Positions 3,005 through 40,566 of a stretch of DNA of 44,014 nucleotides are shown here, piece by piece. The stretch covers positions 1-44,014 of IMG/VR virus record IMGVR_UViG_3300035698_004334; one strand, 5' to 3'. Made by a program: the position numbers and the translations under genes. The stretch comes from a virus. How positions within the stretch are numbered: position 1 is the first letter of the stretch; each line of letters starts with the position of its first letter. The notes below the pieces were generated by a model that was not told the origin of the DNA, did not search any database, and worked only from the letters and a program-made list of their open reading frames with translations.

Positions 3005-3268
3005 TTAAACTTCTTTCTTTAATATCATATATGCTAGGGTTGCTATAACAGTTGCTAAAAATCCAATGATAGACAAACTCCATCTGAACATCTGTTTATT
3101 AAACGAAGCATCTTTTTCACGAATCATTGATTGGATTTCCATTAACATACCTTCAAATCCGGCTGTTTTAGAATCAACACTATCTAACTTTTCTTTTAAA
3201 ATACCATAACGAACATCACATAACTCTACGTGTGCTTCTAGATTCTCTGTTTCGATCTTTGTCGCCAT
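3005..3268 (-). CDS. Coiled-coil protein with C-terminal membrane anchor
   Basis: An 87-residue protein. Residues ~1-55 are a heptad-like helical region and ~63-83 a hydrophobic segment (SLSIIGFLATVIATLAYMIL) followed by KKEV. The topology resembles XhlA-type small membrane proteins of phages, often found near lysis or structural genes. It has its own late promoter GATAAATA at 3293-3300. Confidence 0.7.
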   Translation of the reverse strand: MATKIETENLEAHVELCDVRYGILKEKLDSVDSKTAGFEGMLMEIQSMIREKDASFNKQMFRWSLSIIGFLATVIATLAYMILKKEV

Positions 3269-23344: not shown

Positions 23345-24277
23345 TTCCACCTTGTAAAAATTCAAAGTATACAGTGAGATTACCTGTAAATAACGAGAGC
23401 CTTTAGACCGTACCCAAATCCTTGCGAGATTAGTTAATCTGTTATCCACTAAGCGCATATTATTGTTACCTAGTATCCCTCAATGCTGCCTTAGTTAAAG
23501 TCTGGCGTGTCACTTGTCGTATAACGTTATTCGTCTCTCTATCATTCGTCTGTCTTTTATAACAGTTAGGCTTCGCTAAAAGCTTACGAGATCTGTCAAA
23601 ACAAACACTATCAGCTTGCGGCCTTTAGTGCAGTTGATTCTCCTAAGAGTCAACTATTAAGCATCTTTCGCGTTACACCGAGGTAGTCTTTGCTTTTATC
23701 AATAATAGGAATTGAACCTATGTACGACTGAACCTAAATCAGTTGCCCAAACCAACGTGGGCAATATTGCAACCATACCATAACGTGCTACCTCTGTCGC
23801 AACATATCTTGTTAGATACATCATACAACACGTCACCTGTCTTTCGTCTTGCGGACTAATCAACCTTTCTTCACGATTCTGGATTTATCCTTCCTCGTTT
23901 GAAATGATACTTTGCCTTTTCTTGCGACAGATCAGACTCATATCTACTCATTAAGTTTTAGCATTCTGTGTCTAGCATGTAATTGACTAGGTTTGCGGCC
24001 TATTTAACCTCACCGATTGGCTCTGGTCACTATCCTTTCGGATCATTTACTACACTTTACTGCCTACTGCTATTCTACTAACAGGATATTACTACGGACG
24101 TAAATCCGGCAATACCTACCTTGAGCTTGTATAGATGAACCATTTCTGGCGCTGGGTTGTATGGAAATCACCAGCTTTGGGTCAGTCACCTAACTTATTC
24201 TATTGACGCTATACCGCCAATTCTTATATTTCCTTATTCCTTTGTTAGCAAGCTCGCCTTGTTTGTTTGCTCACTGT
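23345..24277 (-). ncRNA. Long structured non-coding RNA candidate (GOLLD/ROOL-like?)
   Basis: About 930 nt without a credible gene, starting at a strong sigma70-type promoter. It contains many short stems closed by GNRA tetraloops (ATCC-GAAA-GGAT near 24035; GCAA loops near 23610, 23860, 23930 and 23435) and longer hairpins (AGTTGA..TCAACT near 23640). A tRNA-Leu-like element (23697-23771) lies between GAGGTAG (near 23790) and CTACCTC (near 23675), which would close a stem around it. Giant RNAs such as GOLLD and ROOL are known near phage tRNAs, sometimes with internal tRNAs; assignment to either is inference. Confidence 0.5.
23697..23771 (-). tRNA. Degenerate tRNA-Leu(UAG)-like element inside the long RNA
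   Basis: The D arm GCCC...GGGC, the anticodon arm ACTGA-TTTAGGT-TCAGT (anticodon UAG) and the T arm ATAGG-TTCAATT-CCTAT are intact. The acceptor stem pairs at only 5 of 7 positions, the variable loop is 5 nt although Leu tRNAs normally have a long arm, and there is no CCA. A good tRNA-Leu(UAG) exists at 32457, so this copy is probably structural. Confidence 0.5.
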
Positions 24278-27937: not shown

Positions 27938-27977
27938 CAAAGGTGGTAGGATTCGAACCTACGACCTATAAAACAAT
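27938..27977 (-). pseudogene. 3' half of a split tRNA
   Basis: T arm GTAGG-TTCGAAT-CCTAC and acceptor strand CACCTTT, directly downstream of the CCA of tRNA-Trp. The D and anticodon arms are absent. A 5' half lies at 28672-28710, beyond the endonuclease; the two acceptor strands pair at 5 of 7 positions. Confidence 0.65.
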
Positions 27978-28051
27978 TGGCGAGGAAACAAGGAGTCAAA
28001 CCTTGGCCTTCAGTTTTGGAGACTGACGTGCTATCGTAACACTTTTTCCAC
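27978..28051 (-). tRNA. tRNA-Trp(CCA)
   Basis: Anticodon arm TCAGT-CTCCAAA-ACTGA, T loop TTTGACT, G73 and encoded CCA. The acceptor GTGGAAA/TTTCCTC has one T-T mismatch. Its first 21 nt overlap the last codons and the stop (TAG) of the homing endonuclease gene. Confidence 0.85.
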
Positions 28052-28642
28052 ATAATCCCAAGATAACTGTTTTTTATTCAGCAATAATATATTAACTTCA
28101 TGTTGCTCAGTCACCCATTCAATTTTTTGTTTATCTAGTTGTCTAACATAATCATTTTTTGGATCAAGATAAACATCGTAATCCATTAAATAAAAATCTG
28201 GATAATATCTTCTTTTTTGATTAGCGTCATCACAATATATAAGAGGTTCTGGTCTTATCCATTTTATATTATTTTTATCTAAATCAATAGCAAGTTCTAA
28301 TTCCCACGAAGATTCTAATAAATATCCGTTATAATGAGTTCTTTTAGATGCTGTATACCTATTTTTCATTTTTGTTGACATTATTTCAGATAATTTTTCT
28401 TTAGTTTCTTTCGAATGTTTTGATCCTTTTTTAAAACCTTTTTGTTTTTGTTTGCCTTTTTGAGACATTGATTGTTTCTTAACTCGCTCATCGGTGGCTG
28501 CTGTGAGTCCTTTGTTCCACGCAGTTTTCCCCGTCATTCCGTTTTTATATTTTCTATTAAGATTGCTCGGACAAGATCTTTCATGATTTTTATAGCTATT
28601 ATTATTTTTACATTCTTTATTACAATATTGACAAATAAGCAT
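28031..28642 (-). CDS. Homing endonuclease, NUMOD3 plus PD-(D/E)XK-type
   Basis: A 203-residue protein. N-terminal zinc finger (CQYCNKECKNNNSYKNH), then NUMOD3-like repeats (TAWNKGLTAATDERVKKQS and SKETKEKLSEIMSTKM), then a nuclease-like domain with WELELAIDLDKNNIKWIRPE, YYPDFYL and VYLDPKN (PD...D-x-K pattern). AGGAGATAAA-ATG and a late promoter precede it. It lies between the two halves of a broken tRNA and its 3' end is part of tRNA-Trp, so insertion into a tRNA locus is likely. Confidence 0.8.
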   Translation of the reverse strand: MLICQYCNKECKNNNSYKNHERSCPSNLNRKYKNGMTGKTAWNKGLTAATDERVKKQSMSQKGKQKQKGFKKGSKHSKETKEKLSEIMSTKMKNRYTASKRTHYNGYLLESSWELELAIDLDKNNIKWIRPEPLIYCDDANQKRRYYPDFYLMDYDVYLDPKNDYVRQLDKQKIEWVTEQHEVNILLLNKKQLSWDYVEKVLR

Positions 28643-28671: not shown

Positions 28672-28710
28672 GTGTCAACACCGCTGCTCTGGCCTCTGAG
28701 CTACACCGAT
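28672..28710 (-). pseudogene. 5' half of a split tRNA
   Basis: Acceptor strand ATCGGTG, TA, D arm GCTC-AGAGGCCA-GAGC, A26 and the 5' side of the anticodon stem (GCGGT), then the sequence turns into the endonuclease promoter. The GAGCAGCGGT ending is like the region before the anticodon loop of many Trp tRNAs. Confidence 0.65.
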
Positions 28711-38230: not shown

Positions 38231-38926
38231 TCATAACTCTACGTGCGGAGTTGATAATTGCACAATCCTATCTAATCCTATTGCAATCTCAAACACTTTT
38301 GTATCATCTGAATAATCATCTGAATAATCATTTCGGATTGATAACGATGCAACCTCTCTCCATTCGTCGTCGACAAGAGCTTCGATATCAAGCGTAGATT
38401 CTGAATATCCCGGGAGTCTTTCACTGTGTACTAATCGCGTTTGTCTTCGGGTAATTCGTTCAATTTCAAGTTGCAAATCGGGTAATAGAATCGACCGATA
38501 ATCATTTTTTGTTGATATTGAATAAATGCATTGGAATTCTAATTGCCAAAATTCTAAAAACCTAAGTTTGTTAGCGGTTGCACCGTCGGATAATTCTCTT
38601 CTAAAAGATTTCCCGGATTGCCAAACACACAAAGGAAGCTTTGCTTTTGAATCAATTGCTGCTAAGTAACTCGATTTAGTAGTCTCTGGACGAAGCATTA
38701 ATGCTTCGTCAAATGCAATATGATTTGTAACAAATACATCTTTATCTGTATACGAATCCGAAACATACTTGGTCGGAATTAACAATGGGCCTTCTGTTCG
38801 CATAAATTGCCATGCCTTATTAGCCTCCGCAAGCTTCTTTTGGACGACATAGGACATTCTGGCAATGAACATTTCACGAAGATTTATTTCTTCTTCTGTC
38901 CAAAATCTGAGGCCTCCGGAGGCCAT
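38231..38926 (-). CDS. Glycyl-tRNA synthetase-like class II aaRS core
   Basis: A 231-residue protein. MLRPETTKSSY, then KLPLCVWQSGKSFRRELSDG (motif 2 with the ATP-binding FRRE), then LRFLEFWQLEFQCIYS, match GlyRS (LRPETAQG ... KLPFAAAQIGNSFRNE ... REFTMAEIEHF). Motif 3 is VFEIAIGLDRIVQL near the C-terminus (G-x-x-R Arg). The anticodon-binding domain of GlyRS is absent. It could charge tRNA, or act in another adenylation reaction. It lies in the middle of the phage tRNA region. Confidence 0.8.
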   Translation of the reverse strand: MASGGLRFWTEEEINLREMFIARMSYVVQKKLAEANKAWQFMRTEGPLLIPTKYVSDSYTDKDVFVTNHIAFDEALMLRPETTKSSYLAAIDSKAKLPLCVWQSGKSFRRELSDGATANKLRFLEFWQLEFQCIYSISTKNDYRSILLPDLQLEIERITRRQTRLVHSERLPGYSESTLDIEALVDDEWREVASLSIRNDYSDDYSDDTKVFEIAIGLDRIVQLSTPHVEL

Positions 38927-39352: not shown

Positions 39353-39390
39353 TGGTCTAGGTAGTAAGATTTGAATCTTACTACAGGAAA
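39353..39390 (-). pseudogene. 3' half of a split tRNA-Pro
   Basis: T arm with ATTCAAAT loop, acceptor strand TACCTAG, A73 and CCA, directly downstream of the CCA of intact tRNA-Pro(UGG). Its acceptor strand pairs 7/7 with CTAGGTA of the 5' half at 39592-39632. Confidence 0.75.
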
Positions 39391-39470
39391 TGGTCGGGGA
39401 TGTAGGATTCAAACCTACGAAACCTCCCGCTCCCAAAGCGGGCGCTCTAATCAGACTGAGCTAATCCCCG
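39391..39470 (-). tRNA. tRNA-Pro(UGG)
   Basis: Acceptor CGGGGAT/ATCCCCG, D arm GCTC/GAGC, anticodon arm CCCGC-TTTGGGA-GCGGG, encoded CCA. It lies between the halves of a second tRNA-Pro(UGG). Confidence 0.95.
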
Positions 39471-39485
39471 TTAAACTTGTGATTA

Positions 39486-39602
39486 TTATATGTAATAATG
39501 ATCTAAAAAACTTGTCTTTGATGTTATACGTCTTCTCATTGTTTCGTGGCCTATTCCGTATGCTTCTGATGCAAAAGAAACTGCGTTTCCGTTCCAAAGC
39601 AA
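39486..39602 (-). pseudogene. Homing endonuclease remnant (NUMOD/IENR-like end)
   Basis: The frame read from a TTG at 39602 gives WNGNAVSFASEAYGIGHETM then RRRITSKTSFLDHYYI and TAA. The S-x-x-EA-x-G-I-x-x-x-T-x-RRI ... F-x-x-YYI pattern is that of the DNA-binding repeats at the C-terminus of homing endonucleases. It starts inside the 5' half of the split tRNA-Pro; the nuclease domain is gone. Confidence 0.55.
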
Positions 39603-39632
39603 GCACTCTTGACCAGACTGAGCTATACCTAG
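39592..39632 (-). pseudogene. 5' half of a split tRNA-Pro(UGG)
   Basis: Acceptor CTAGGTA, TA, D arm GCTC-...-GAGT, anticodon stem CTTGC and loop TTTGGAA (anticodon UGG), after which the sequence becomes the endonuclease remnant. The 3' half is at 39353-39390. Confidence 0.75.
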
Positions 39633-39927: not shown

Positions 39928-40566
39928 TTAAAATACAGATGGATCAACTTTGTCTGGATCTATAGAATAATCCATATGTTTATCCTTGTTGAACCAATTA
40001 TAAAAAGGATCGATGATTACTACCTGGCTGCCACGGTTCATGAAGTTCTCGCCATGCATGTCTAGAAGATTACGATTCTGTTGGAACAATTCAAAGACTG
40101 ACTGTAGGTCAGTGTCTTCTGTTACGTAAGAAGGATCTTTTTGCCAGTTAGAATATTCTACGTAGAATGCAGCATTGGCCGCAGAAGGTGGACGACTAGA
40201 TGCGGTAGGGTCAAGCTTCTCTAACCTAATAGCGTATACCATAGGTGTGATCTTCACAACCTTTCCTTTAATCTTCGGGACGTATTTGTTTCCTTGGTTC
40301 TGCATACAAAACTTTATCCAACGTATGTATGCCGAGTCTTTCATAAAGACTTTTAACACATACGGATATTTGTCATTGCTAAACACAGATGCATATCTTC
40401 CTCTACTAACATGATTGAATCCATGTTTGGGAAGAACGTCGGTTAATACCCTCATCCATGAATTATCTCTAGTATCAACGCTAGTAACTTGTTTCGATAA
40501 TTCTTTTCGAACAGTTGTTAGATCTTCTGGATTCTTTAGTTCTAAGATGATATCGTTAATTTTCAT
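39928..40566 (-). CDS. Protein kinase-like phage protein
   Basis: A 212-residue protein. GRYASVFSNDKYPYVLKVFM has the glycine-loop and VAIK-type Lys; NLLDMHGENFMNRGSQVVII-DPF is like the catalytic loop (H-G-x-N) and the Mg-binding D of kinases and aminoglycoside phosphotransferases. From memory, similar short kinase-like proteins occur in T4-like marine phages. The catalytic Asp of HRD is replaced by Gly-Glu, so activity is uncertain. Confidence 0.7.
   Translation of the reverse strand: MKINDIILELKNPEDLTTVRKELSKQVTSVDTRDNSWMRVLTDVLPKHGFNHVSRGRYASVFSNDKYPYVLKVFMKDSAYIRWIKFCMQNQGNKYVPKIKGKVVKITPMVYAIRLEKLDPTASSRPPSAANAAFYVEYSNWQKDPSYVTEDTDLQSVFELFQQNRNLLDMHGENFMNRGSQVVIIDPFYNWFNKDKHMDYSIDPDKVDPSVF

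Follow-up and report, generated by a model that had tools for sequence, protein, structure and literature searches.

A phage tRNA-Pro(UGG) gene split around a second tRNA-Pro(UGG): a possible trace of a homing endonuclease element

A split tRNA-Pro gene and the tRNA-Pro inside it

The window, that is, the whole stretch of DNA analysed here (44,014 nucleotides), is a 44-kb phage fragment taken from IMG/VR record IMGVR_UViG_3300035698_004334. It carries about 30 tRNA genes, all on one strand. Two loci in it, termed here the Pro locus and the Trp locus, have every feature on the minus strand. The Pro locus consists of the following features, listed in the 5' to 3' order of that strand:

39592 to 39632, minus strand: broken tRNA-Pro(UGG), 5' half, which comprises acceptor, D-arm, the anticodon 5' strand, and the loop TTTGGAA
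39486 to 39593, minus strand: reading-frame remnant of 35 codons, NGNAVSFASEAYGIGHETMRRRITSKTSFLDHYYI and a stop codon, directly at the tRNA-Pro break, helix-turn-helix (HTH)-like
39391 to 39470, minus strand: intact tRNA-Pro(UGG), 59.0 bits, the proposed replacement copy
39353 to 39381, minus strand: 3' piece of the broken tRNA-Pro (T-stem GTAAG/CTTAC of 5 bp, 8-nt loop, acceptor TACCTAG, and ACCA)

The 5' half (39632-39592, CTAGGTATAGCTCAGTCTGGTCAAGAGTGCTTGCTTTGGAA) is divided into the segments CTAGGTA TA GCTC AGTCTGGTCAA GAGT G CTTGC TTTGGAA, and it scored 12.8 bits against the Rfam tRNA model over positions 1-35 as a 3'-truncated gene. The likeness to tRNA stops past position 38, the end of the anticodon loop, and this is the break point. 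The closest intact tRNA is the tRNA-Pro(UGG) of locus L129 (CTAGGTGTAGCTCAGTTTGGTCAGAGTGTTTGCTTTGGAAG..CACCTAGAC) among the 1,655 tRNAs of the fetched loci, a set in which tRNA-Pro genes of this kind are over-represented, having been fetched by a pattern scan. The Rfam score and the nearness to L129 bear out the first-pass annotation of this DNA, which had named the segment as half of a tRNA-Pro(UGG). An A at position 37 was considered as a mark of the break and dropped, as it is common in intact phage tRNA-Pro genes according to a pattern scan.

The same annotation placed the 3' half at 39353-39390, of which 39381-39353 is confirmed (T-arm, acceptor, and ACCA), while nothing recognisable as tRNA was found in 39390-39382. 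The acceptor strands (CTAGGTA/TACCTAG) pair 7/7 as claimed, and this is rare in shuffled sequence: acceptor plus NCCA occurred in 83 of 20,000 dinucleotide-preserving shuffles of the stretch, and in 1 of 20,000 when the T-arm was added. In the whole window, this is the single site at which an acceptor plus NCCA pairs with the broken half. The anticodon 3' strand (GCAAG) is missing from the locus, and the 3' piece on its own had no match to the tRNA model. The annotation had also held that the split would be refuted if the joined halves did not score as a tRNA; the joined pieces indeed drew no ARAGORN call at the default setting, through decay: they lack the anticodon 3' strand and have a T-loop of 8 nt. 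The pieces 39632-39592 and 39381-39353 are one split gene, and this gene is dead.

The tRNA-Pro(UGG) enclosed by the two pieces (39470-39391) is intact, as had been annotated, and its body and acceptor are unlike those of the broken tRNA-Pro. The broken and the enclosed tRNA have the same anticodon (UGG/UGG), again in agreement with the first reading.

The reading frame at the break

Between the break and the intact tRNA-Pro lies the 35-codon remnant, which had been described as NUMOD/IENR-like. This description was not upheld. No endonuclease match was obtained for the remnant in Pfam, PHROGs, PDB, or tblastn against phages, and the NUMOD1 and I-HmuI-NUMOD profiles run on this genome left it unmatched at E <= 10, 35 residues being little for profiles. 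NUMOD1 gave weak matches only across the 50 records behind the fetched loci. The best local likeness of the remnant was to a generic helix-turn-helix, and a single-sequence AlphaFold model yielded one long helix, which is uninformative. In the reading proposed below, a full-length endonuclease would be expected to share the tail of the remnant (...ETMRRRITSKTSFLDHYYI); neither two degenerate DNA patterns run on viral contigs nor one genome scan turned up such a full-length relative, which the annotation had suggested seeking. Relatives of T4 SegB were considered and rejected: SegB has a tail that does not resemble the remnant, and its search gave few relatives. Judging from its position, we propose that the remnant is the tail of a homing endonuclease.

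A full-length endonuclease at the Trp locus

The first reading compared the Pro locus with a second one in the same window, with the following features:

28678 to 28710, minus strand: orphan tRNA 5' half (ATCGGTGTAGCTCAGAGGCCAGAGCAGCGGTGT)
28031 to 28642, minus strand: full-length endonuclease of 203 aa, with a zinc-finger-like N-terminus and a G..E..Y.PDF..K core
27981 to 28051, minus strand: intact tRNA-Trp(CCA), 50.7 bits, with a 21-nt overlap with the stop codon end of the endonuclease
27939 to 27962, minus strand: orphan tRNA 3' piece (T-arm and CACCTTT, no CCA)

The order at the two loci does match: half, endonuclease, tRNA-Trp, and T-arm piece at the Trp locus. The 203-aa protein matches PHROG endonuclease families, and its core is conserved and presumably of the PD-(D/E)XK type. 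The CACCTTT of the 3' piece forms 5/7 pairs with ATCGGTG of the half. There are just two convincing orphan tRNA 5' halves in the window, one at the Pro locus and the other here, beside a real endonuclease.

Other features of the window

Several further features of the window were observed. A GOLLD RNA (23371-23836, minus strand; 152.4 bits, gathering score 150) encloses a tRNA-Leu (23772-23696). A tRNA-Arg(ACG)-like gene (GCCCTCG ... CGGGGGCACCA) was recognised by eye at about 27530-27453 (minus strand), with no ARAGORN call and none at the Rfam gathering score. A piece composed of a T-arm, an acceptor, and CCA (39006-38962, minus strand) lies right behind tRNA-Tyr (39090-39009), and a matching 5' half was not found. 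A 231-aa protein (38231-38926, minus strand) shows weak similarity to the class II aminoacyl-tRNA synthetase core (Pfam E 2.6e-5, which falls short of the curated cut-off), and it has 16 relatives in viral contigs, some of which adjoin tRNA genes. Beside the Pro locus, 39928-40566 (minus strand) encodes a protein matching a phage protein kinase PHROG (phrog_15752, E 1.9e-11), and no relatives of the 212-aa neighbour protein were found in viral contigs.

Relatives of the Trp-locus endonuclease

Seventeen loci were fetched with the Trp-locus protein, and an alignment of five of these identified 335 relatives in viral contigs, of which 80 were fetched; removal of near-identical proteins left 61 non-redundant endonucleases. 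The same alignment found 4 relatives in 84,980 species genomes, and the family is essentially viral. No evidence connecting the Pro-locus remnant with this family, the basis of the survey, was found. Control ORFs were chosen mechanically from the same loci.

An orphan tRNA 5' half, defined by all four D-stem pairs and U33 within 150 nt upstream, was found for 23 of the 61 endonucleases and for 5 of 264 control ORFs, although one of the 23 (L180) is not tRNA-like by eye. An intact tRNA starts at -45 to +15 of the stop codon in 35/59 endonucleases versus 30/276 controls. The Fisher p-value is about 1e-14 for each of these enrichments, and it is optimistic because some loci are related to one another. 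The orphan halves mostly end at the anticodon loop (..ACT, break, N). A T4-type late promoter (TATAAATA) was located near 23/61 endonuclease starts versus 13/299 controls. At several loci, TATAAATA occupies, as judged by eye, the loop of a hairpin pairing with the ribosome-binding site; PMC2988022 describes such a hairpin for T4 endonucleases, and regulation by a hairpin and a late promoter for segB.

The surveyed loci with a half are of more than one kind. In the first (kind A: L006, L196, L221, and L227), the half is followed by the endonuclease, an intact CAU tRNA, and a 3' piece that pairs 7/7 with the half; this piece begins at the variable loop or T-stem and, like its Pro-locus counterpart, is without the anticodon 3' strand. 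The second (kind B: L171, L211, and L234) has hybrid tRNAs, in which a new 5' half, derived from the 3' end of the endonuclease gene or the DNA just past it, is joined to the resident 3' half. In L171, TCCTTGA of the orphan half forms all 7/7 pairs with the 3' acceptor TCAAGGA, to which the new 5' half is a poor match. In the third (kind C: L176, L178, and the isolated phages AM101 and CkP1), the half, the endonuclease, and a 3' piece are present with no recognisable tRNA between them, and these four rule out a replacement tRNA at every insertion.

The type of the broken tRNA was taken from the best-matching tRNA of the orphan half, by which 10 loci could be typed, the others being ambiguous. 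The broken and the neighbouring tRNA were of the same type in 8 of the 10, tied in 1, and different in 1. A broken Asn(GUU) has an adjacent tRNA-Asn in L008 and L175 (L171 is the tie), and a broken CAU tRNA has a CAU tRNA adjacent or regenerated in L188, L208, L211, L221, L227, and L234. The mismatch is L192, where the broken half best matches Pro and the adjacent tRNA is Ile(UAU). Among all 35 adjacent tRNAs, 15 are CAU and 10 are Asn.

Some details of CAU loci may be recorded here. At several of them, TAG at tRNA positions 8-10 serves as the endonuclease stop codon. In the L006 cassette (about 3080-3182), the acceptor stem of the tRNA is extended to 15 bp (GTGCTTTGTGCGGCT / AGCCGCACAAAGCAC), and copies of CTTTGTGCG lie on either side of this tRNA.

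An occupied and an empty site in isolated phages

In Acinetobacter phage AM101, GGGCCTATAGCTCAGTTGGTTAGAGCAGTGGACTCAT is followed by the endonuclease and then by ATAATCCATTGGTCAC...TGGGCCCACCA; the endonuclease splits tRNA-Ile2(CAU), and the junction is inside the anticodon. At the same site, phage AB-Navy1 has one intact CAU tRNA (75.8 bits) within flanks that are 99.4% identical, so that an occupied and an empty allele of one site are seen in this pair (the left edge of the junction was read by eye from the sequences, with one mismatch there). Over 34 nt, the orphan half of L221 matches the 5' half of this intact AB-Navy1 tRNA without a difference. No intron family was found in AM101. The Pro locus itself yielded no empty allele.

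The endonuclease is also present in the E. coli T4-like phages F25 and IME341. In F25, it lies between tRNA-Ile2 and tRNA-Arg(UCU), the position of segB in T4, and its frame enters tRNA-Arg and ends in the anticodon loop. In AM101 (L281; 2128-2130, CA-TAA) and in Escherichia phage F25 (L280; 2161-2163, TTC-TAA), a tRNA anticodon loop forms the endonuclease stop codon.

Explanations of the Pro locus

Ordinary turnover of the tRNA array could have produced the Pro locus if another tRNA-Pro recombined with or was inserted into the tRNA-Pro gene, with no endonuclease involved and with a short frame present by chance. The roughly 30 tRNAs on one strand, the further degenerate tRNA pieces in the window (e.g., past tRNA-Tyr), and a remnant without any match all agree with this explanation. 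We nevertheless consider it rather unlikely, because the gene is broken in the anticodon loop, the insertion point of the endonuclease elements, because the order of half, frame, intact tRNA, and 3' piece is also theirs, and because the window has just two convincing orphan 5' halves, the non-Pro one of which adjoins a real endonuclease.

It would be surprising if the 3' piece were an unrelated hairpin (GTAGTAAGAT-TCAA-ATCTTACTAC), leaving the truncated 5' half as the only tRNA remnant. The piece alone is unmatched by the tRNA model and does form a perfect 10-bp stem, but the combination of a 7/7 acceptor, ACCA, and a T-arm came up in just one of the 20,000 shuffles and at no second site of the window, and the 3' end of the matching intact L129 tRNA-Pro is ACCTAGAC. 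We give practically no credence to an intron that contains another tRNA, from which the Pro pieces would be rejoined by splicing into one tRNA. While the fully paired acceptor strands and the retained CCA are in its favour, no cloverleaf is possible after splicing when the anticodon 3' strand is absent, and neither the Pro locus nor AM101 yielded an intron family. A self-splicing core with precisely rejoining exons was not found at the Pro locus.

A proposed element of an endonuclease and a replacement tRNA

The Pro locus holds a broken and an intact tRNA-Pro, and the same architecture with a full endonuclease occurs at many related loci, one of them with an empty-site counterpart. We think it likely that, at the Pro locus, a mobile homing endonuclease gene and the tRNA directly following it entered the anticodon loop of tRNA-Pro(UGG), and that the endonuclease has since been mostly deleted. 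Such an element would be composed of the endonuclease gene with a tRNA immediately after it, inserted into the anticodon loop of the phage tRNA-Pro(UGG). The endonuclease would cleave target tRNA genes that are still intact, and repair templated by the element-bearing genome would copy the element in. The target tRNA gene would thereby be broken, and the tRNA of the same type carried by the element would offset the loss; this tRNA need not contain the cleavage site. Later, the Pro locus would have lost nearly all of the endonuclease, with 35 codons left, and the broken tRNA its anticodon 3' strand. That the Pro-locus frame was an endonuclease, that the tRNA gene was cleaved, that homing took place, and that the loss was functionally made good is what we infer from this arrangement.

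The first-pass annotation had proposed a general element of an endonuclease and a replacement tRNA. The Trp-locus protein with its relatives and the comparison of AM101 with AB-Navy1 lend good support to such an element; its link to the remnant was not found, and replacement is not universal. The class is recognised because the Trp locus and its relatives have full-length endonucleases and because an empty site could be compared in isolated phages, and for the Pro locus the best reading is that of a decayed member of this class. The pattern recurs around a homing endonuclease gene, and this points to a selfish element by which a tRNA gene is broken and a spare is provided. On balance, we lean slightly toward the broader view that widespread mobile elements of phages attack tRNA anticodon loops and bring a resistant replacement tRNA, or a 5' half encoded within the coding sequence of the endonuclease, whose stop codon then lies inside the regenerated tRNA, and that they are one engine of the reshuffling of tRNA arrays.

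Such an element bears on why phages have large and changeable tRNA arrays. A tRNA-breaking element with a spare would explain, with no recourse to codon usage, how these arrays gain and replace tRNAs and collect debris. The link between SegB and tRNA in defence escape gives the topic currency. We found no report in the open-access literature of a split, hybrid, or truncated tRNA with a homing endonuclease in this arrangement.

Comparison with known systems

SegB of T4 and T6 is likewise a free-standing phage endonuclease beside tRNA genes; PMC13096335 reports that it cleaves inside DNA containing tRNAs and that its association with tRNAs is wide. In T4, tRNA-Arg begins within 5 nt after segB. 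SegB is, however, a GIY-YIG homing endonuclease and thus belongs to a different nuclease family from the Trp-locus endonuclease, and segB of T4 lies between two intact tRNAs, unlike the split-tRNA loci. The features of SegB described in excerpts of PMC13096335 and PMC2988022 include no split or replacement tRNA.

The likeness to integrase elements is in the insertion into a tRNA gene and the compensation for the part that is lost. Integrase elements regenerate the 3' end of the tRNA into which they insert, whereas the phage loci supply a 5' half or a whole tRNA. An unsystematic look noticed no integrase or att-like direct repeat at the Pro locus.

Group I introns in tRNA genes are located in the anticodon loop. 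Those with endonucleases share with the phage loci both this insertion position and an endonuclease gene inside a tRNA gene. They differ in that no intron was found in AM101 or at the Pro locus, and in that the broken tRNA is often without its anticodon 3' strand, which rules out splicing it back. Group I introns in tRNA genes are a subject of PMC3984707.

Mobile ORFs of fungal mitochondria (in atp6, atp9, cox2, and nad3) are endonuclease genes that insert into a gene and supply a foreign gene end, while the displaced native end stays downstream as a relic (PMC3630166). This is the same bargain as that of the phage tRNA element, a break together with a replacement. The fungal system concerns protein-coding mitochondrial genes, whereas the phage system concerns tRNA genes, to which a whole tRNA or a 5' half is brought.
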